From assembly GCF_000426485.1 (NCBI RefSeq), contig NZ_AUFL01000009.1, positions 1 to 64,000 on the forward strand: 64,000 bases of DNA, given 5' to 3'. This DNA is from Indolivaga capnocytophagoides DSM 22835. GTDB lineage: Bacteria > Bacteroidota > Bacteroidia > Bacteroidales > Dysgonomonadaceae. A program made the position numbers and the translations under genes. The notes below the pieces were generated by a model, which worked only from the letters and a program-made list of their open reading frames with translations, had not been told where the DNA came from and did no database searches. Below are positions 7,686 to 64,000 of the stretch, piece after piece; within the stretch, counting starts at the first letter, position 1, and each line of letters opens with the position of its first letter.

Positions 7686-7711
7686 GTGGTATCTACCACC
7701 GCAGATACCAC
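7686..7711 (-). terminator. Terminator downstream of rteC
   Basis: GTGGTATCT (7686-7694) pairs perfectly with AGATACCAC (7703-7711) around an 8-nt loop. Read on the minus strand it is followed by TTTTATTGTTTT, as expected of an intrinsic terminator 40 bp after the rteC stop. Confidence 0.6.
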
Positions 7712-7750
7712 CATTTAGTTTGTAACATATTGATTATTAAACTTAGTGTT

Positions 7751-9663: not shown

Positions 9664-9810
9664 GTTTTTATTTTTAGAAAAAGATAAGTCTTAAATATTT
9701 GCAGACTGATAACGTCCGATAGAAATAGAATCGATAAGATCGTATCCGTTGAGAAAAAGTCCATGATCAATTCCTGATATTATCTATATTTTTTCTCTCA
9801 GCTATATATA

Positions 9811-10254
9811 TTAGTATCTACGCAATTTCACATCCGGATTCTTGGCCATTTTTCCTGTCAGCATCCAGTATAATATCTGTCTGTCCTTCTTAAAGCGATA
9901 GAAGCCCAATGTGCAGAAACTGTCAAATGAAGGAGTATCAGTTCCCCTGGAGATCTCATAATCCACAGCAAAAGTAATCCGGGATAAAATATTGTCTATA
10001 TAAAAACATCCACCTCCGGGTTCTTTATTTAATCCTTCGAGATAGGCTAGAACCTCTCTCTCTACTTTGTCGGATACTTCAGGTTCGAAAAGTGTAAAAC
10101 ATGTCAGTATATCTTTCTCCAGTCGATATATACAATAAATATCCCCAAAAGGGGAATCACTTAATCCGTAAACTAAACCTTCCTGAGGGTTATAAGTCCC
10201 TTTAATTATCTGGTTCTGTAAGTTTCTTATTATCCGCTTAGCGTATCGTTCCAT
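9811..10254 (-). CDS. Hypothetical protein, 147 aa
   Basis: The frame runs from ATG 10254 to 9811. The protein is soluble, with mixed alpha/beta character, no signal peptide and no membrane segment. The N-terminus is basic (MERYAKRIIRNLQNQIIKG) and the C-terminus ends KNPDVKLRRY. I do not recognise a family. Its position at the edge of the mobile-element remnant and its orientation shared with rteC and the reductase suggest element cargo. Codon use looks ordinary for the region. Confidence 0.5.
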   Translation of the reverse strand: MERYAKRIIRNLQNQIIKGTYNPQEGLVYGLSDSPFGDIYCIYRLEKDILTCFTLFEPEVSDKVEREVLAYLEGLNKEPGGGCFYIDNILSRITFAVDYEISRGTDTPSFDSFCTLGFYRFKKDRQILYWMLTGKMAKNPDVKLRRY

Positions 10255-51394: not shown

Positions 51395-52002
51395 GTTTAT
51401 TTTGTAAATTATCTTAGAGAGAAATATCCAGATATTAATCTAAAGTTTTCAAAGAGTAACGAAAGAGGAAAAGTTTTTTAGTATCTTAACTTTGACTATA
51501 TAGTATCATTTTTTTACTACTACATAAATTCTATTTGAAGATGAAAATCTAAGAAATTCAGTTCTCTAAAACGAAAATTTTATATCTTTACAAAAGATAA
51601 GTTGCTCTTTATATATTGAGGAAATTAAGCATATCTAAGAACTAAGCTGGTTTCTAAACTCAGCACTCAAAATGCAAGAACGGGTAAAACGACGTAAGTA
51701 TCTGATATACCAGTGATAACTTCATTATTCTTCTCTCCGCTGCAAGCAGTAAAAAAGCAAGATATTGTGTATTTAGGAAAGCTTTCCGTTACGAATACGT
51801 TACCTGTTTTAAACTGTGGCAACCCATTCAAAGAACGGATTTTCCTCTAACAGTAAACGATTTGGAACGAATTCGACAAACAAAGCTACGCTCTGTTCGT
51901 TTTATACTCTGAATCAGTTTCCTATTCACTAATTCACAATACTTTGCGTATCGTTGATTAGCTCTATAACAGTTAATTTTATAACCTGTAAAAGAGTTAA
52001 TT
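51395..52002. other. 608-bp gap upstream of tandem integrases
   Basis: No supported gene lies here. The stretch is expected to contain the left junction of the mobilisable element; a 12-bp candidate att core lies at 51970-51981. No tRNA gene was seen beside it. Confidence 0.45.
51970..51981 (+). repeat. Candidate left att core (12 bp)
   Basis: CAGTTAATTTTA occurs here, 21 bp before the first integrase gene, and again at 60519-60530, just after the last mobilisation gene. The flanks TAGCT upstream and TAAC downstream are also shared with gaps. Such direct repeats can mark an integrated element's ends, but a 12-mer in AT-rich DNA may be chance. Confidence 0.35.
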
Positions 52003-53247
52003 ATGCAAGAAGTAAAAGTAAGTTTCTACCTCAAACGAAATGAGGAGAAAGCAGACGGAACGATTCCGATTCTCGGACGTATCCGCATCGAAAAATCAAT
52101 GGTACAGTTCAGTGCCAAAGTTTATGTTCCCGTATCCCTTTGGGATACTACCTCGGGCAGAGCTATCGGTAAAAGTAAAACAGCTTTGTCCATCAACGCA
52201 ACCTTGGATAAGACCTGCGTAGCCATCCATTCCGCTTATCGGGAACTTTCGCTAAAGAAAAACGACATCTCTGCTTTGGAAGTAAAGAATGCCTTTCAAG
52301 GTATTGCATCTGAACAGGATACCCTTGTCAAATATTTCGAAGCCCACAATGAGAAATTCTTACAAAATGTAGGCATAAACCGTGCAGAAGGAACGTATAA
52401 ACGCTTCCTTACCTCTTTGGGACATCTGAAACGTTTTATGCGAAAGAAATATAATATTTCCGACATCCCCTTTCAGGCATTGACTCCTTCCTTTGTTGCC
52501 AATTATGACTACTACCTGCGTATCGAACTTGGTCTTGCTTGTGGAACAATAATCAATACAATCGTTCATCTGCGAAGAATCATTAAAATAGCGATAAACA
52601 ACGGCTTGGTTCGCTTCGATCCGTTTATTGACTACAAGTACATTGCCCAAGAGTCTGTTCCCAAATCATTGACTTCGGATGAGTTGGATACACTGATAAA
52701 AGTAAAACTGTCCCGACCGAATCTGAACTTTATTCGGGACATGTTCTTATTTTCCTCCTTTACAGGCATTGCATTCAGTGATATGCGGAATCTGACTAAA
52801 AAAAACATTTCCAAAGCCGAAGACAGAGTCTGGTGGATTCATCTTAATCGGAAGAAGACAGGAGCACCCTGTCATATTCCATTGTTGGAAATACCTCTTC
52901 AACTCATCAAAAAGTATCGGGGAATAGCCAAAGAAGGAAAACTGTTTCCGATGATCAGTTGCAGTAAAACCAATATCTACCTGAAACGGATCGCTAAGGA
53001 ATGTGGTATAAACAAACGAGTCACCTTCCACATGGCACGTCACTGCTATGCTTCGGTAATTACACTCTCACAGGGTGTTCCACTCGAAACAGTAGGCGAA
53101 CTGCTTGGACATACCGATTGGAGAGCCACCCGTATCTATGCACAGGTCAGCAATGATAAAATCGGAAAAGACATGCAATTGCTTAACAAACGCTTGTCGG
53201 GCAAATACGATTTTGAGGGGAGTAACTCTGCTGATGCAGTATTGTAA
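52003..53247 (+). CDS. Tyrosine-type site-specific integrase (first of tandem pair)
   Basis: The 414-aa protein has an N-terminal arm-binding-like domain (about 5-90, KVSFYLKRNEEKADGTIPILGRIRI), a SAM-like core-binding domain (about 107-205), and a catalytic domain with R262 (DMRNL), K285 (NRKKTG), H343xxR346, H370 (GHTDW) and Tyr379 (ATRIYAQV). It is the usual Bacteroidetes transposon integrase architecture. The gene is 3 bp from the next, so both are in one operon. Confidence 0.88.
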   Translation: MQEVKVSFYLKRNEEKADGTIPILGRIRIEKSMVQFSAKVYVPVSLWDTTSGRAIGKSKTALSINATLDKTCVAIHSAYRELSLKKNDISALEVKNAFQGIASEQDTLVKYFEAHNEKFLQNVGINRAEGTYKRFLTSLGHLKRFMRKKYNISDIPFQALTPSFVANYDYYLRIELGLACGTIINTIVHLRRIIKIAINNGLVRFDPFIDYKYIAQESVPKSLTSDELDTLIKVKLSRPNLNFIRDMFLFSSFTGIAFSDMRNLTKKNISKAEDRVWWIHLNRKKTGAPCHIPLLEIPLQLIKKYRGIAKEGKLFPMISCSKTNIYLKRIAKECGINKRVTFHMARHCYASVITLSQGVPLETVGELLGHTDWRATRIYAQVSNDKIGKDMQLLNKRLSGKYDFEGSNSADAVL

Positions 53248-53250
53248 TTT

Positions 53251-54603
53251 ATGGAGAAAAGAGAAATGAATGCAACAAGGAACAAGAATAACAACAATAC
53301 GAAAAGCACCGTTTACAGCACTTTTGCTGTTTTGTTTTATATCAATCGGCAGAAGATAAAGAAAAACGGTAGGTGTCCTTTAATGGGCAGAATATCCATC
53401 AATGCAGAAATGGCTCAGTTTTCTGCCGGATTAGATGTCGATCCGAAACTTTGGGATGTAAAAACTTATCGTCTGACAGGCAGAAGCCAGCATGCATCCG
53501 AAGCAAACTATCAGATAACACAACTGACAGAAAAGATTCAGCGGTATTATAAAGAAATACTTAATGAACAGGGATATATTACAGCAGAGCTGGTCAAAAA
53601 TGCCGTAGGTGGTATTGGACGGAAGAAAGAAAATCTCTTGGAACTCTTTCGAGAGCATAACGAAGAATATTCCAAACAAGTAGGCATTACGCGTTCTGCT
53701 GAAACCATGCGAAACTATATTTCGGTATATAACCAAACAAAAAGTTTCTTATGCACCCACTATAATGCAGAGGATATACCACTCCGACAATTAGAATTGT
53801 CTTTTATCGAAAAATTTGATTCGTTTATGCGTATCGAACAGGGTTTTACGGCACATACAGTTTCTTCCTATACAATTATGCTACGAAAGATAATCCGCAG
53901 GGCAATCAGTCAAGGAATATTACACAAAAATCCTTTTGCCAGTTATATTCCCGAGCAACCACCCCGTAAGCGTAGACACATGACTCGCGAAGAACTAGAT
54001 AAATTTATGAATGTTTCGATAGCCTCCAAACGTGTATGCCACACTCGCGACATGTTCATCTTTGCGACATTCACAGGTTTGTCGTATGCAGATATGCGAA
54101 ATCTATCAGAAGAAAATATCCACCAAGAGCAAAACGGCAGTCTTTGGATAAAGATAAAACGGCAAAAGACTGGCAGTAAATGCAATATTCCACTATTGGA
54201 TGTGGCATTACAAATCATGGAGAAATATAAATCGGAACGAAAAGGAAGCAAGATTTTCAATATGATAACTCTGTCATGCATGGAAGTTAATTTGAAGAAA
54301 ATTGCGAAGCTATGTAAGATAGAAACACGGATTACCTACCATCAAAGCCGACATAATTTCGGAACCCTTATCACGCTCTCACAGGGAGTCCCGATGGAAA
54401 CCGTCAGTCAGATGATGGGGCACAAGTGCATTAAAACGACCCAGATTTACGCCAAGCTAACACGACAGAAGCTTAATGAGGATATGAAGAAGTTAAGTAG
54501 CCGTATTGGCGGGAAATACAAACTGGAGGATTATGCTGAAAATGAGAATAAAGCAAATCAATGTAAAACAGTGCAATTAAAACCAAACAAGCATGGAAAA
54601 TAG
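53251..54603 (+). CDS. Tyrosine-type site-specific integrase (second of tandem pair)
   Basis: The 450-aa protein has the same architecture as its neighbour with catalytic residues R283, K306, H364xxR367, H391 and Tyr400. The N-terminus carries an Asn/Lys-rich lead and a domain VLFYINRQKIKKNGRCPLMGRISI. Both integrases are complete and diverge strongly, so the pair is an old arrangement rather than a recent duplication. The 3' end overlaps the HTH gene by 11 nt. Confidence 0.88.
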   Translation: MEKREMNATRNKNNNNTKSTVYSTFAVLFYINRQKIKKNGRCPLMGRISINAEMAQFSAGLDVDPKLWDVKTYRLTGRSQHASEANYQITQLTEKIQRYYKEILNEQGYITAELVKNAVGGIGRKKENLLELFREHNEEYSKQVGITRSAETMRNYISVYNQTKSFLCTHYNAEDIPLRQLELSFIEKFDSFMRIEQGFTAHTVSSYTIMLRKIIRRAISQGILHKNPFASYIPEQPPRKRRHMTREELDKFMNVSIASKRVCHTRDMFIFATFTGLSYADMRNLSEENIHQEQNGSLWIKIKRQKTGSKCNIPLLDVALQIMEKYKSERKGSKIFNMITLSCMEVNLKKIAKLCKIETRITYHQSRHNFGTLITLSQGVPMETVSQMMGHKCIKTTQIYAKLTRQKLNEDMKKLSSRIGGKYKLEDYAENENKANQCKTVQLKPNKHGK

Positions 54604-55174: not shown

Positions 55175-56119
55175 ATGATAAAATATGATATGATAGATTT
55201 TAAAGAATTACCAGAAGATGGTATTTTATTTGAACAGCTAATCCGAGAATTATTAGTTCTTGAGGGGTTTGAAACTCATTGGACAGGAGTTGGACAAGAT
55301 GGTGGTCGAGATTTAATAGTCGTAGAGAAGCTTAAAGGTGAATTGTCTGAGTATGAGAGAAAATGGTTAATCAGCTGCAAACACACTGCAAATTCTGGAA
55401 AATCATTAGGTAGAGAACAAGCTGGAAATATAACAGAAGATTGTCGAGCAATTGGTGCTGAGGGTTACATATTAGCATGTTCAACACAACCAACAGCTAG
55501 TCTTGTCACAAGATTGGAAGAGATAGCACTTAAACAGCAAATTATCACCAGATTTTGGGATTCAATAGAACTTGAAAATAAACTTCTAAAACCTAATACA
55601 TTTAAATTGATACATACATTCTTTCCAAAGAGTGCTGTAAATTATCAATGGAAAATATATAATGCTTTTTCTCCTGCATTTTGGGCGGCAAATTATAAAG
55701 ATTATTTTTTCTATTTGAGTTCTCGACATTCCAATACTTATCCTTATTTAGAAAGCATAGAAACAATTGTCTCTTTAATTGAAAAAATACCAATTTATAA
55801 GGATAAAAATGATTGGTGGAATTCTCATTATTTAAGACTCCGCTCGGTGTATTATGATGACAAACATTGTACTCATATAGCATATATTGATTATATAATC
55901 CCTCATAAGGCAGACAAATCAACAATTATAGCACCTAAACAATTACAAAAGCTATTATTTGATTCATTTACTGAAGAAGAGCATAAAATAATGAATTTAC
56001 CAGACTGGGATATATTGTATATCGAAGATTCGACAGTAAGTGATAGCTTTCAACTTGATCATAAACGATATTATGAACCATTCATAAAAGAATTTGAGAA
56101 AGGAATGGCTAGGAAATAA
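55175..56119 (+). CDS. Mrr-like restriction endonuclease, putative defence cargo
   Basis: The 314-aa protein has a PD-(D/E)XK nuclease domain at about 14-150: LLVLEGFETHWTG, GQDGGRDLIVVE (catalytic Asp), WLISCKHTANSGKSLG (the conserved K) and AEGYILACSTQPT. This is the Mrr_cat pattern. The C-terminal 160 residues, with several aromatic blocks (PAFWAANYKDYFFYLSS), match nothing I know. It is a single gene inside the mobilisable element with AT-richer codons than its neighbours. A role in restricting modified or foreign DNA is inferred. Confidence 0.7.
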   Translation: MIKYDMIDFKELPEDGILFEQLIRELLVLEGFETHWTGVGQDGGRDLIVVEKLKGELSEYERKWLISCKHTANSGKSLGREQAGNITEDCRAIGAEGYILACSTQPTASLVTRLEEIALKQQIITRFWDSIELENKLLKPNTFKLIHTFFPKSAVNYQWKIYNAFSPAFWAANYKDYFFYLSSRHSNTYPYLESIETIVSLIEKIPIYKDKNDWWNSHYLRLRSVYYDDKHCTHIAYIDYIIPHKADKSTIIAPKQLQKLLFDSFTEEEHKIMNLPDWDILYIEDSTVSDSFQLDHKRYYEPFIKEFEKGMARK

Positions 56120-58351: not shown

Positions 58352-58437
58352 GTTTGGCTTCTACCAATTGTAAAGTAAGTCTGCACAGTATCTATGACTT
58401 AGCTTTGAATGGAACATTCCATGTTCATGTTAGCGGA

Positions 58438-58550
58438 GCGAGGTTATGTTTTGATTGCATCAAAACCCTCGCTTTGGCTAACCGCCAAAGGGAAAACCGC
58501 TCCCGATGGTCGCAGTTTAGGGTCAGGGTCACAGACCCTTTTATTTATTA
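58438..58550 (+). other. Candidate origin of transfer (oriT)
   Basis: The gap before mobC holds three hairpins in a row. The first is TTTTGAT-tgc-ATCAAAA (58449-58465) with outer GCGAGG/CCCTCGC. The second is CTTTGGC-taacc-GCCAAAG (58472-58490). The third is GGGTC/GACCC near 58520-58538. Inverted repeats directly upstream of mobC and the relaxase gene are where oriT regions normally lie. The nick site itself cannot be located by eye. Confidence 0.55.
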
Positions 58551-58581: not shown

Positions 58582-58971
58582 TTGAGTCAAGACAATCAAG
58601 ATAAGCGAAAAGGTGGACGCCCGAAGAAGAGTTCCATTACTCGGAAAGACAAGACTATTGCCGTTTGTTTTTCTGAGCCGGAACTCTATGCTATCAGGCA
58701 TCGGGCAGCCAAAGCCAATCTTCCGCTTAGTGTTTATTGTCATGATGCTATTTTGAACGGTGAAATAAAAGAACCACTCAAAAAAGAAGAGCTGGATACG
58801 CTTCGAAGCATCTCCAACATGGGAAATAATCTAAATCAATTCGTAAAAACAGCCAAGTTTTTGAGTGTAAAACGTCTCGAAAATATGGCTGTTCCATTAC
58901 TGGAATCGATACAAAATATCATAAACAAGCTTTCGGATGATTGGAAAAATAGTAAAAGGAAGAAGCTTTAA
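58582..58971 (+). CDS. mobC: MobC-like relaxosome accessory protein
   Basis: The 129-aa protein reads from a TTG at 58582; no in-frame ATG precedes it after the upstream stop. It opens with a basic GGRPKKSS segment, then a ribbon-helix-helix like KTIAVCFSEPELYAIRHRAAKANLPLSVYCHDAIL, and the MobC mark LRSISNMGNNLNQFVKTAK. MobC opens and bends oriT for the relaxase. It overlaps the relaxase gene by 35 nt. Confidence 0.82.
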   Translation: MSQDNQDKRKGGRPKKSSITRKDKTIAVCFSEPELYAIRHRAAKANLPLSVYCHDAILNGEIKEPLKKEELDTLRSISNMGNNLNQFVKTAKFLSVKRLENMAVPLLESIQNIINKLSDDWKNSKRKKL

Positions 58972-59872
58972 GGGGTGTATTTCATATGTTTTGGCTGATA
59001 AAAATGCTAAGGTTTTGGTGAGCGAAGGTGTCTTGGAGGTTGATACAAAATCAATAATCAACAGCTTTTATATGCAGAGCCTGCTCAATCCGAAGCTTTC
59101 GAAATGTGTCGGACATATCCCTTTGGCATTCTCTCCTGATGACAAAGAGCGGATGACGGATCAGTTTATGGAACGCTTGGCAAAAGAATATATGAAAGAA
59201 ATGGGAATAGAAAACACACAATATCTCATTGTTAGCCACAGCAATACTTCTCATCCGCATTGTCATATTGTGTTCAATCGGGTGGATAACGATGGTAAGA
59301 CGATTTCCGATAAAAACGATCAATATCGTAATGAGAAAGTATGTAAACAGCTAAAGGATAAGTATAATCTGACTTATGGTAAGGGTAAAGAGAATGTAAA
59401 TGTACAGAAGCTCAAAGGAGCGGAGCAAACTAAATACGAAATCTACCATGTGATTAAAGATGCTCTTCCTAAAGCCACGAGTTGGAAACAGTTTGAAGAA
59501 ACCCTCAAACAGCAAGGAGTAGCTATCGAATACAAACGTAAAGGACAAACCAACGAAATGCAGGGTATTTCATTCAAAAAAGGAGAACATTCTTTCAAGG
59601 GTTCGGAAATAGATCGGAAATTCAGCTATTCCAAGTTGGATACACTGTTTAACGATAGTAGCTATAGTCTGGAGCAACAACAAGATCAACAAGTAGCCAT
59701 TCCAAAAGCCACAGAAACGAATTTGATAGAAAATGCTGTATCAGGAGTAGCCGATGCAGTATCAGGTATAGGTAGTTTGTTTGATATCCAACCATCAAAT
59801 TACGATATGAATGAAGCAGAAGCCTTACGATTAAAAAAGAAAAAGAAGAAAATCAAAAGACCAAGACTCTAA
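58937..59872 (+). CDS. MobB/MobA-type relaxase
   Basis: The 311-aa protein starts MIGKIVKGRSFKGCISYVLADKNA. The relaxase metal-binding motif is SNTSHPHCHIVFNRVDNDG (HxH, near residue 110), in the PF03432 family. It nicks oriT and leads the strand into the recipient using a helper element's transfer machinery. The C-terminus ends in a Lys-rich basic tail. The overlap with mobC indicates coupled translation. Confidence 0.85.
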   Translation: MIGKIVKGRSFKGCISYVLADKNAKVLVSEGVLEVDTKSIINSFYMQSLLNPKLSKCVGHIPLAFSPDDKERMTDQFMERLAKEYMKEMGIENTQYLIVSHSNTSHPHCHIVFNRVDNDGKTISDKNDQYRNEKVCKQLKDKYNLTYGKGKENVNVQKLKGAEQTKYEIYHVIKDALPKATSWKQFEETLKQQGVAIEYKRKGQTNEMQGISFKKGEHSFKGSEIDRKFSYSKLDTLFNDSSYSLEQQQDQQVAIPKATETNLIENAVSGVADAVSGIGSLFDIQPSNYDMNEAEALRLKKKKKKIKRPRL

Positions 59873-60560: not shown

Positions 60561-61211
60561 ATGATTTACGGATATATTAGAGTAAGTAGCGATAAGCAGA
60601 CTGTAGAGAACCAACGATTTGAGATTGGTAATTTTTGCGATAAGGAAGATCTTAACATAGACGGATGGATAGAAGAGACTATCAGTGGAACGAAGGCATA
60701 TAACAAAAGAGAACTTGGTAGGTTATTAAAAAAAGTTCAGAAAGACGATTTGATTATTTGTGCAGAGCTGTCTCGACTAGGTAGAAATCTCTTTATGATA
60801 ATGGAGATATTGAATATTTGCATGTCTAAAGAATGTAAAGTATGGACAATTAAAGATAACTATCGTCTTGGAGAAGATATCCAAAGTAAAGTATTAGCCT
60901 TTGCTTTTGGACTTTCTGCCGAGATAGAACGAAATTTGATAAGCCAAAGAACGAAAGAAGCATTGGCACGTCTGAAAGCAGATGGGAAGCATATCGGTAG
61001 AAAGGAAGGTATCAGGAATGTTCATCTAAACAAAGTTTGTAGTAGAAATCACAATCTAATTTTAAAAGAGCTAGAAGGTGGCACTAGTATTCCGGATATC
61101 GCAAAGAAAATAAAAGTAGCTCGTGGTACTTTATATCGCTACCTCGCTTATACCAATATTAGAAAACCAACTAAATCTATCAACGGACGTTGGGAAAGAG
61201 GTATATACTAA
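60561..61211 (+). CDS. Serine recombinase / DNA invertase
   Basis: The 216-aa protein belongs to the resolvase/invertase family. It opens MIYGYIRVSSDKQTVENQ with nucleophile Ser9 (Ser10 is adjacent). Other motifs are AELSRLGRN (Arg residues of the active site, about 69-76) and the helix SAEIERNLISQRTKEAL. A C-terminal HTH (about 173-196: GGTSIPDIAKKIKVARGTLYRYL) binds the crossover site. The length and C-terminal domain match Hin/Pin-type invertases. It ends 12 bp before the left inverted repeat of the methylase switch, so it probably inverts it. Confidence 0.85.
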   Translation: MIYGYIRVSSDKQTVENQRFEIGNFCDKEDLNIDGWIEETISGTKAYNKRELGRLLKKVQKDDLIICAELSRLGRNLFMIMEILNICMSKECKVWTIKDNYRLGEDIQSKVLAFAFGLSAEIERNLISQRTKEALARLKADGKHIGRKEGIRNVHLNKVCSRNHNLILKELEGGTSIPDIAKKIKVARGTLYRYLAYTNIRKPTKSINGRWERGIY

Positions 61212-61223
61212 GTTCAAGTTTGT

Positions 61224-61318
61224 CGTCCAGTTTTTGAAGACAAACTCCGGTAAAAAAGGACAAGGTATGCCTGTTGTCAGAAACCCTCAATTCTATTTTA
61301 GGGAGGGATTTTGTTGGA
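61224..61318 (+). repeat. Inverted repeat, left copy (95 bp)
   Basis: It encodes the shared stretch VQFLKTNSGKKGQG...FREGFCW. It is identical to the reverse complement of 62055-62149 but for one base (A against G in the GGGAGGGATTTTG part). Confidence 0.9.
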
Positions 61319-61320
61319 TA

Positions 61321-61695
61321 GATGTTAACTCTACCTTTTTGAAAGCTCGCTTGAAAGAAAAGTGCGTTTTTGATGTGTTAAGTATGAGTTTATTCACTAC
61401 CTTAAATTTACCAGATTGGTATTACGTGTGTCTTATCAACTCACATTTTATTAGCTTGTATGTTGACAACTTTATAAATAACACATCTCATTTTCAAATA
61501 AATGATGCAAGACAGTTGCCTATAGTGATACCATCAGAACAGGAATTAGATATATTTCATAATATATTTATTGCTGCGGAAGAGATAAAAAAACAACAGT
61601 TTGCATCATTACTAACGTCCCAAGAAGCAGATAACTTCTTGATTAAAATTCAAAATAGATTGGACAAAACTGTTAGCGAACTATATAGAATATAA
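61321..61695 (+). pseudogene. Silent alternative 3' cassette of the methylase gene
   Basis: An open frame continues from the repeat for 125 residues after FCW (IDVNSTFLKARLKEKCVFDV..., SMSLFTTLNLPDWYYVCLINSHF..., FQINDARQLPIVIPSEQELDI) to VSELYRI. It aligns in pattern with the active end (N...ARLLKAKIK, DVGSMSLYSA, INSNFLFTYYREFIN, QINDIRQLPIIIPTEEQ, VSELYSI) but differs in sequence. No start codon, promoter or upstream gene body is present, so it is a stored variant. Confidence 0.85.
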
Positions 61696-64000
61696 TTCAC
61701 TAACAAAGGAATCCAGTTTGTTTTCTAATAGATCAGCATCTTCCTTGTCATTTTGAGAAGAAGTTGAAGATTTTAAATATATCATACTGTCAAACAATTG
61801 TTTACAAATATTCAATTGTTCTTCTGTTGGAATTATTATTGGTAGTTGACGAATATCATTTATTTGAATATTCACGGTACAATTTATAAATTCTCTATAG
61901 TATGTAAATAGAAAATTAGAATTAATTGCAGTAACAATATAAAAATTAGGACTATAGCTATATGCTGAATATAGTGACATCGAACCAACATCATTTACTG
62001 AGATGGACTTTATTTTAGCTTTCAGTAATCGAGCTTGCGGATTAAGAATATTATTCCAACAAAACCCCTCCCTAAAATAGAATTGAGGGTTTCTGACAAC
62101 AGGCATACCTTGTCCTTTTTTACCGGAGTTTGTCTTCAAAAACTGGACGTTTTCCTTAGACCATGCAATTGCAAATGGAGTTTCTAAATACCAACGATTA
62201 CCATCTTTATCTCCCTTATCATAAGGAACGTAATAATTTTTAGAAGTATCAATACCATTTTCCTTTTCATCATCTGTAAGAGTGTCTACATCAGCAATTT
62301 CATTATCTTCAATTAGTCGATATATATACCCTTGTCCAAAAATATCTCGTCCATATTTTTCTTTTAACTGGTCGAATTTAATGGCAATTTCCTCTTCGGT
62401 TCGTTGTGTCAAAAACTCAATTGGTGAAAGCCCGGCCAATTCATTATTGGATATTTTATATCTAGTCATGACCTCTACTAGCTTCTTGGGACGAGAGTTC
62501 GTGATATTGGCAGCCCATTTGGTAGACTTCCGTATAGCGATATATTTGCCATTGTTCGCAGTAGCCAATCCTTGTCCACCTTCGGTTAAGCAACCGAGTA
62601 ATGCAACATCTCCCGGTTTTAGGCTCCTTCTATACTCTTCTAGTAATGCTGCATTTTGAGTAATTTTTTTACTGGTTTCTATTTTGTCCCACCACTGGTC
62701 ATATAAGTCTTTTACTTTCTTGCCATAGCGATTGTGGATCTTTATATTATATTCTGTAGGCTTAAAAAGAACGGAGTTTTGTGTCTCACGATAAACTTTT
62801 TGAGCTATGCTAGGAAAAAATATTGGATCTTTCAGATTTTTACTTCCATCCAAGAAGTTCACTTTATGGCTTTCTGTATACGGCTTCTTGACGACTTGTA
62901 TTATGCAGGTATCTACCATCACTGAATCGAAAGGATTTGCAGTATCAAAAATATAGCGAATTGAGTTCTTTAAAATTAATTCACGCATATTTCTTTTTGT
63001 CTGTGTTGTCCAAAAAGTTTTTGGTATGATGTATGTAATTGACCCATTCTCTTTTGTAAGCCTCATGCCCTTAAAGGTAAATAGATTATATGTGTCATCT
63101 GAAAATCCAAACTCAATTTCATATGATTTCTTTTCTGCCGTAGAAATTCCCTTTGTGGAAATGTAAGGAGGATTTCCTATCACTATATCAAAACCATTTT
63201 TTACCCCAAACATCCATTCTGAATCAAAAAATGGTGAAGAAGCATTTTGGTCAAACATTTTCCATTGTTGCATTAATACAGCATTGTGACTATCTACGAC
63301 ACGCAAATTTTCTAGTGTATCTGCTATCTGACTTTGTAGTTCTTGCACACGTCTTCTATACTTATTCTTAGTTTTATTACTCTTGGCTCCAAATATACGG
63401 TGAGTTGCCTGAATCAATTTTTCTTGTAATTTTTCTAATTCAGGAGTATTGAAGAGATCCTTTGTCTTTTGTAGTCCAATCAGTGAGTTGGCTGCAACAA
63501 ATTTGGCTTCTAAATTAGGCAGTGGTCGAATACCAAAGTTGTCTTCTGGCTTAGTAGTTGGTCGTTGGTCTACAATCAATGATATGAAAAAACGCAACTT
63601 GGATACTTGAACTGCAATGCTTTGAATATCGATACCATAGATACATTTTTCTATCAAATATAATTTACGAGCATAATCTGGACTATTGATATTGTCATCA
63701 AAGCTTCGATTAATATCTGTTTGAATTTCATCTCGTTCTTCAACAGAATAATCTTTCAATGTTGAACTTATTTCCTTCATCGACTCCTGAAGAATTAATG
63801 ACTTCCAAATCTCATTTTTAGGATCTAATTGAGAGAGAATATGCACCATCTGTTGTAATACTCCTACAGGAAAGGCCCCTGATCCACAAGCTGGATCTAA
63901 CACTTTGCAGGTTTGTATTGCTTGAATTATTAATTGTTTAGTTTCATTACTCAAATTTAGATCTTCTTCGGAATATAACATTAATTTGCGATACTCTTCT
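61681..64000 (-). CDS. Large Eco57I/PglX-like adenine methylase (type IIG or BREX), N-terminus off window
   Basis: About 771 residues are visible; the frame is open to the window end, upstream of the first ATG at 63981, so the true start lies outside. SAM motif I is CKVLDPACGSGAFPVG and catalytic NPPY lies near 269, both m6A type. The body resembles Eco57I-like methylases, including BREX PglX. The C-terminal 155 residues lie after the 95-bp repeat and form the variable part, probably target recognition. Type IIG enzymes carry the nuclease in the missing N-terminal part; PglX has none. The window does not settle which it is. Confidence 0.8.
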   Translation of the reverse strand, partial: EEYRKLMLYSEEDLNLSNETKQLIIQAIQTCKVLDPACGSGAFPVGVLQQMVHILSQLDPKNEIWKSLILQESMKEISSTLKDYSVEERDEIQTDINRSFDDNINSPDYARKLYLIEKCIYGIDIQSIAVQVSKLRFFISLIVDQRPTTKPEDNFGIRPLPNLEAKFVAANSLIGLQKTKDLFNTPELEKLQEKLIQATHRIFGAKSNKTKNKYRRRVQELQSQIADTLENLRVVDSHNAVLMQQWKMFDQNASSPFFDSEWMFGVKNGFDIVIGNPPYISTKGISTAEKKSYEIEFGFSDDTYNLFTFKGMRLTKENGSITYIIPKTFWTTQTKRNMRELILKNSIRYIFDTANPFDSVMVDTCIIQVVKKPYTESHKVNFLDGSKNLKDPIFFPSIAQKVYRETQNSVLFKPTEYNIKIHNRYGKKVKDLYDQWWDKIETSKKITQNAALLEEYRRSLKPGDVALLGCLTEGGQGLATANNGKYIAIRKSTKWAANITNSRPKKLVEVMTRYKISNNELAGLSPIEFLTQRTEEEIAIKFDQLKEKYGRDIFGQGYIYRLIEDNEIADVDTLTDDEKENGIDTSKNYYVPYDKGDKDGNRWYLETPFAIAWSKENVQFLKTNSGKKGQGMPVVRNPQFYFREGFCWNNILNPQARLLKAKIKSISVNDVGSMSLYSAYSYSPNFYIVTAINSNFLFTYYREFINCTVNIQINDIRQLPIIIPTEEQLNICKQLFDSMIYLKSSTSSQNDKEDADLLENKLDSFVSELYSI
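62055..62149 (-). repeat. Inverted repeat, right copy (95 bp, inside the methylase gene)
   Basis: This copy lies inside the active gene and encodes the same residues VQFLKTNSGKKGQG to FREGFCW. Its outer end (62149) is the last base shared with the left copy; upstream of it the gene body is unique. Confidence 0.9.

Follow-up and report, generated by a model that had tools for sequence, protein, structure and literature searches.

A probable inversion switch predicted to exchange half of the TRD of a PglX-like adenine methylase in Indolivaga capnocytophagoides DSM 22835

Described specificity switches and the methylase family

Phase variation has been reported to be common in pglX (PMC11341690, PMC7513527), which agrees with an earlier note on this DNA that took inversion of pglX near recombinases to be known in BREX loci. 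The phase-variable pglX genes of BREX type 1, e.g., in Lactobacillus rhamnosus (PMC7513527, PMC11341690), resemble the locus described here in that an adenine methylase with a PglX-type target recognition domain (TRD) varies in its specificity part, and in that a full-length copy is accompanied by a partial one, the recombinase gene being situated between the two or next to them. The present locus differs in that the methylase falls under the PglX cut-off, has no BREX neighbours and is partnered by an HKD/Snf2 helicase, while the recombinase is a serine recombinase of the Mpi family and the silent copy is only a short half-TRD cassette. Programmed inversions reportedly also alter type II restriction-modification (R-M) genes by way of an inverted partial gene copy (the 2023 survey of Milman, Yelin and Kishony, NAR 51:553, cited in PMC11892184), and here, too, such a copy would change an R-M coding sequence; half-TRD exchange in a PglX-like enzyme, a second module (module M, below) and base-level reading of cassettes are not known from that survey. 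In type I R-M, inversion of hsdS switches specificity (e.g., in Streptococcus pneumoniae, PMC4948785), and inversions among specificity cassettes similarly give several methylomes per population; specificity is set there by a separate S subunit, whereas it resides here within a single-chain methylase. The Bacteroides fragilis master DNA invertase Mpi (PRK13413; cited in PMC5903667) belongs to the recombinase family whose cut-off the present recombinase exceeds; Mpi inverts many scattered regions in trans, whereas the recombinase of this locus adjoins one coding switch and has a DNA-binding part of its own. An adenine methylase together with an HKD-nuclease/Snf2 or Snf2 helicase is also found in the BREX-related DUF499 type 2 or Hma systems (PMC12839542) and in DISARM DrmMI-DrmD, from which the present locus is set apart by a genome without DUF499 ATPase, by DrmD and DrmMI resemblance far under the curated level and by the absence of adjacent drmA/B/C. 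Apparently new are the PglX-like, HKD/Snf2-linked methylase, the use of a short coding site by an Mpi-family recombinase to swap half a TRD, the presence of a second module, and cassettes decodable to a single base.

The window, i.e., the whole stretch of 64,000 nt (64 kb) that was analysed, is the beginning of a 240-kb contig. The methylase passed the Pfam Eco57I model (PF07669; 104.8 bits, cut-off 25.3) and has intact catalytic motifs DPACGSG and NPPY. Filing it under BREX/PglX was rejected because it scored 103.6 bits against NCBIfam BREX_1_MTaseX (PglX), for which the cut-off is 500, and because no BREX genes (e.g., pglZ or brxC) lie beside it, the neighbours being helicase, AbiEii, AbiEi, recombinase and mobilization genes. 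The silent cassette matched the BREX-1 PglX profile at 750-908 (E 7.6e-14) and BrxX at 748-839. Filing under the BREX-related Hma/BR group was rejected since the DUF499 ATPase (PF04465) was not found in this genome, a control genome being positive, and filing under DISARM because the resemblance to DrmD (helicase, 139.9 bits; curated level 610) and to DrmMI was far under the curated level and drmA/B/C were not adjacent. The identity with PglX or type IIG enzymes, which the earlier note had left to be searched, is thus answered only in part: the protein is PglX-like yet under the PglX cut-off, and PADLOC type IIG models matched it, with the best-scoring stretches within or beside the methylase part, while no nuclease domain was found in the polypeptide with Pfam. 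AlphaFold, run with a seven-sequence alignment, gave no reliable model of the C-terminal part (mean pLDDT 40 for the window and 43 for the rumen genome RUG382).

Upstream of the methylase, closely spaced and in the same direction, are genes for an HKD-nuclease/Snf2 helicase, an AbiEii toxin-type protein and an AbiEi antitoxin-type protein. The AbiEii/AbiEi toxin-antitoxin-type pair (contig C6, 68788-70562; L004, 8788-10562) immediately precedes the helicase-methylase pair and seems to belong to the same operon. Methylases of this family were present in 40 of 393 sampled Bacteroidales genomes and mostly adjoin an HKD/Snf2-type helicase where the contig extends far enough; most have no switch, and the switch is therefore an addition. 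Two plasmid records examined possess the helicase-methylase pair without the switch. In another phylum, the 11.8-kb plasmid plas2 of Lactiplantibacillus plantarum (NZ_CP113421.1, L135) carries the pair with module M2 and a gamma-type TRD, and a silent cassette was not seen on it. No relatives were found in a search of viral contigs.

The invertible segment, its recombinase and the putative element that carries it

The two arms listed in Table 1 form a 95-bp inverted repeat with one mismatch (61308, A vs G) and a spacer of 736 bp, so that the junction between the expressed 3' end and an opposed silent cassette, as claimed in the earlier note, is confirmed by the coordinates. In a genome-wide search, the repeat stretch was present in two copies only, namely the two arms, and the arm-to-arm E value of 1.6e-41 excludes a chance origin. 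The frame, which was also said to be retained in both orientations, indeed remained open upon in-silico flip of the segment, giving a methylase of 1237 aa instead of 1236 aa; the former C-terminus stayed open on the opposite strand and the recombinase gene was left intact. The residues exchanged are the final ~130 of the methylase. The expressed and silent 3' ends overlap tail to tail at nt 61681-61695, and the silent frame is uninterrupted over nt 61224-61695 (+); 5' of the repeat, it reads on across the recombinase gene's 3' end, where it is unrelated to the methylase. A single orientation was seen in the assembly of this genome. All details of the earlier note that were checked proved right.

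Table 1. Positions of the switch components and of the surrounding putative mobile element (window numbering unless indicated)
Feature	Position	Strand or arm	Remarks
16-bp direct repeat, left copy	51798..51813	+	CGTTACCTGTTTTAAA; right copy at contig 70784-70799
Two tandem tyrosine integrases	52003..54603	+	ORFs of 414 and 450 aa, by sequence motifs
MobC-like and MobA-like mobilization genes	58582..59872	+	ORFs 58582-58971 and 58937-59872, by sequence motifs
Serine recombinase, Mpi family	60561..61211	+	216 aa; NCBIfam PRK13413, 323.4 bits
Invertible segment	61224..62149	.	926 bp, bounded by two repeat arms
Distal repeat arm	61224..61318	+	adjoins recombinase, heads silent cassette; order site A, module M1, site B
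Site A	61225-61241	distal arm	GTCCAGTTTTTGAAGAC
Site B	61297-61317	distal arm	TTTAGGGAGGGATTTTGTTGG
Silent C-terminal cassette, type beta	61309..61695	+	second TRD half and C-terminus; open frame ending ...SELYRI
Expressed Eco57I-class N6-adenine methylase	61681..64000 in window; gene to contig position 65391	-	1236 aa; C-terminal cassette alpha
Proximal repeat arm	62055..62149	-	within expressed methylase gene; site B at 62056-62076

The recombinase, whose ORF ends (61211) 12 bp from the start of the arm (61224) as had been noted before, exceeded the curated PRK13413 cut-off of 272 bits and was the only Mpi-family member found in this genome. Recombinases at loci with the same site (RUG382, L025 and G246) were 53-69% identical to that of the window in the DNA-binding part, whereas at most loci with other sites this part was only 30-33% identical, the catalytic domain being 70-89% identical; the L119 recombinase was intermediate (DNA-binding part, 47%). 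The G246 recombinase had a divergent catalytic domain (76%), yet the closest DNA-binding part (69%). Judged by these identities, the DNA-binding part tracks the type of site. Site B was confined to switch loci in the six genomes searched, except for a few matches with three mismatches. A palindromic core common to sites A and B was not found by eye, and the crossover point is unproven. At every switch locus with an assembled flank, the recombinase gene adjoins the array.

Recombinases of this family also lie beside inverted TRD cassettes of TaqI_C-type Eco57I methylases at L122 and L125, where the repeat arms reach ~310 bp, and, by sequence, at L123; at these three loci the recombinase stop codon coincides with the start of the silent cassette or is close to it. 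The family likewise flanks the inverted TRD cassettes of an Ignavibacteriae methylase at L023, where the recombinase points away. These four are considered independent inversion switches. At L119 (G383:C6; repeats 7689-7736 and 9802-9849), a further switch locus with an Mpi-family recombinase, an inverted repeat is situated at the catalytic GFDIVIGNPPY motif, and a flip would exchange half of the methylase catalytic domain plus the TRD.

Together with the integrase and mobilization genes, the 16-bp direct repeats delimit what is putatively an integrative mobilizable element of 19 kb carrying the switch. Homology to an island of a Tannerella MAG (L018) stops at 70790, the same place as the right end of this element, and mobilization genes of a similar kind (MobA and MobC) flank the switch locus L125. 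An Mrr-type restriction endonuclease gene (PF04471; window 55175-56119) is located on the same putative element. A deletion in L018 (11629-11730 vs window 58430-58470), which fuses site B to the sequence GAGGGTTTTG near mobC (window 58470), took out the cassette, the recombinase and the mobilization genes; the L018 methylase is truncated (1115 aa) and the helicase frame is split. The deletion could be due to the recombinase acting on a pseudo-site or to plain microhomology.

Alternative arrangements, cassette types and module M

The rumen genomes RUG13948 (L021) and RUG382 (L022) share 98.4% identity across 7.2 kb, to the end of site A. Past site A, RUG13948 has module M1 and then a cassette of which 99 bases are available, all of them (100%) matching RUG382 silent cassette 1 in reverse complement; RUG382 expresses a different cassette, which is related to the window's silent cassette. 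These findings indicate that the two genomes represent natural alternative states of the switch, in relatives and not in the genome under study. RUG382 possesses two tandem antisense cassettes followed by the recombinase, and G246 has one silent cassette in sense and one in antisense, a layout as expected from an outer inversion in a three-cassette array. Since relatives such as these hold at least three cassettes, the system is a small shufflon rather than a strictly two-state switch.

The first RUG13948 contig covers exactly 99 bases of the stretch common to the expressed and silent alpha cassettes before it stops, and the second starts precisely with the final base that all cassettes share. 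By default, the maximum k of idba_ud is 100, and the 99-base break thus equals k-1. For the single-sample rumen assemblies, idba_ud was run with its default settings (PMC6785717). If single-sample assembly and not co-assembly is assumed, the contig ends fit the branch points expected of a k=100 graph when the population is mixed; a shared 20-bp site could not break the assembly of one state, and coexistence of both arrangements in the RUG13948 sample is thus indicated indirectly, although a mixture of strains would look alike. Two G246 contigs, C32 and C196 (L118 and L060), have an exact 118-bp overlap on the margin of a silent cassette, which looks like a mixed-orientation assembly break; the boundary is 2 bases off a simple two-state model, and this case was not used as evidence. 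At L025 (9215-11125), a recombinase and two opposed cassettes are present, one of which abuts an apparent truncated iron-alcohol-dehydrogenase gene; a methylase body for them was sought in that genome and not found, and the locus may be a remnant, an ectopic inversion or a misassembly.

Three cassette types, alpha, beta and gamma, recur, with identities of 0.56-0.68 within and mostly 0.31-0.52 between types. The window and RUG13948 express alpha, of which RUG382 and L025 hold silent copies; RUG382 expresses beta, which is silent in the window and in G246; and G246 expresses gamma, again with silent copies in RUG382 and L025. Within types, pN/pS between loci was 0.28-0.42, with synonymous sites saturated and the silent gamma cassette of RUG382 left out, suggesting that silent cassettes are under purifying selection. 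A never-expressed cassette should lack such values, so this constraint supports the switch.

A profile of the TRD and cassette aligned, in consistent register, with DNA-bound E. coli BrxX at 748-853 (E 1.9e-6) and with Salmonella PglX (E 1.3e-4). The BrxX TRD comprises residues 651-837, in which base 1 is read by R751, base 2 by K681 and D684, base 3 by Q784 and base 4 by N823 (PMC11842806). The exchanged cassette spans the equivalents of BrxX 784, 785 and 823, and by this alignment the swap involves only the second half of a PglX/BrxX-like TRD plus the C-terminus, not the whole domain; the final ~60 cassette residues fall outside the part aligned to the BrxX TRD. According to Went et al. (PMC11341690), the base preceding the methylated adenine is C with Lys at PglX 802 (BrxX 785), G with His at 838 (BrxX 823) and A with Asn at 838. 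Residues 785/823 are G/N in alpha, L or V/H in beta and K/T in gamma, in agreement with the signatures reported for A, G and C, respectively; this is a prediction from remote homology, with no methylation motifs available. Residue 784 is Val in all three types, and base 3 may therefore be unchanged. A delta cassette (E785/H823) has a less clear base signature. The same pairings occur in relatives without a detected methylase switch (G103, A785/N823; G292, K785/T823; the L. plantarum plasmid, K785/T823). Mutants at base-reading positions showed broadened specificity and no clean switch (PMC11842806, PMC11341690).

Within the repeat, the stretch between sites A and B, designated module M, occurs as M1, NSGKKGQGMPVVRNPQ, which carries an Arg aligned with BrxX R751, and as M2, of the DPRARYQGHS type, which is 6 residues shorter and lacks this Arg. 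Module M differs between near-identical bodies, namely window versus L018 and RUG13948 versus RUG382; M2 is in the distal arm in RUG13948 and in the body in RUG382, and a copy of M1 was sought in the RUG382 genome and not found. This variation fits a second crossover at site A, with exchange between strains not excluded. A plausible but still tentative extension, of which we are not quite persuaded, is a decodable shufflon of two parts, in which a flip at site B would replace the cassette, setting base 4 in a BREX-like motif (A/G/C for alpha/beta/gamma), a flip at site A would change module M (base 1) as well, and the remaining bases would be fixed by the body. In that case, a single methylase gene could give rise to a limited combinatorial repertoire of motifs that can be predicted from its sequence, and the driver would be a recombinase with a DNA-binding domain tuned to a site concealed in the reading frame.

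Proposed mechanism, rival explanations and meaning

The locus is very probably a site-specific inversion switch for methylase specificity. In the proposed mechanism, the Mpi-family recombinase would invert the segment by way of a short site that lies within the 95-bp repeats, both its action and the crossover point being inferred. Inversion would replace the last ~130 residues, i.e., the second TRD half and the C-terminus, with the catalytic domain, the first TRD half and the helicase-nuclease partner kept constant. The base 5' of the methylated adenine would thereby be re-specified: with alpha, the cassette expressed here, the inferred base is A, with beta, brought in by the flip, it is G, and with gamma, known from relatives, it is C. 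Subpopulations differing in methylation pattern and restriction targets would then exist within one population; a role in phage defence through the HKD/Snf2 helicase is inferred. Directly supported are the anatomy, the preservation of frame, the alternative arrangements in relatives, the constraint on silent cassettes and the position within the TRD. The reading as a switch gains support from the natural alternative states, the fitting assembly break, purifying selection on silent cassettes and the differences at base-reading positions. It is limited by the lack of reads of this genome, so that inversion here and the motifs are inferred, and by the variation of module M, for which one inversion at site B cannot account.

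Whether the flip alters target sequence was also considered. It might instead alter activity or partner contacts (on/off, or restriction strength), for which the last ~60 cassette residues, lying beyond the aligned TRD, leave room since they could touch partners; this is unlikely, as the cassettes differ at positions aligned with BrxX base-reading residues in a pattern fitting the published rule, and both methylase forms are full length. The claim of the earlier note that one body with different C-terminal domains would probably give two methylation patterns is accordingly retained as a switch of specificity, on account of these differences, while a swap of a whole domain gives way to that of half a TRD, and a strictly two-state system is not upheld, as relatives have at least three cassettes. 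It is rather improbable that the cassette and recombinase are relics of a formerly active switch in a lineage that no longer inverts: only one orientation is in this assembly, and L018 has lost the cassette, recombinase and mobilization genes and has a broken helicase frame, but in the window the recombinase, both cassettes and the 95-bp repeat are all intact, and silent cassettes are constrained across loci.

A repeat of 95 bp suffices for some RecA-dependent exchange, and repeats reach ~310 bp at L122 and L125, so that general homologous recombination could act without the serine recombinase. This is very unlikely to be the explanation, because the arrangements alternate in RUG382 and RUG13948, whose cassettes have only the ~20-bp site in common, and because the recombinase gene adjoins each array with an assembled flank and, on the identities given above, tracks the site type in its DNA-binding part. 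Least probable is that the silent cassettes are templates for gene conversion or between-strain exchange without reversible inversion. Module M, differing among near-identical bodies (window/L018 and RUG13948/RUG382) in a way that one site B inversion cannot explain, speaks for it; yet M2 lies beside site A in the distal arm of RUG13948, from where a site A inversion would move it into the body, as in RUG382, and the silent cassettes are inverted and lie beside a recombinase of an invertase family.

With a site-specific inversion switch as the preferred reading, the effect of a flip is predictable, since the residues of the cassettes agree with a published rule that links residue to base: the methylated adenine should be preceded by A at present and by G after inversion. 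The cassettes form a natural series of half-TRDs working on a constant body, which is useful for learning and engineering DNA recognition, and they raise the question of how a restriction-like system survives a sudden change of its own specificity. A further suggestion from the locus is that a phage defence that diversifies itself can be spread by mobile elements, and that recombinases of the Mpi type, which are known for inverting promoters, have been recruited repeatedly to diversify methylases.
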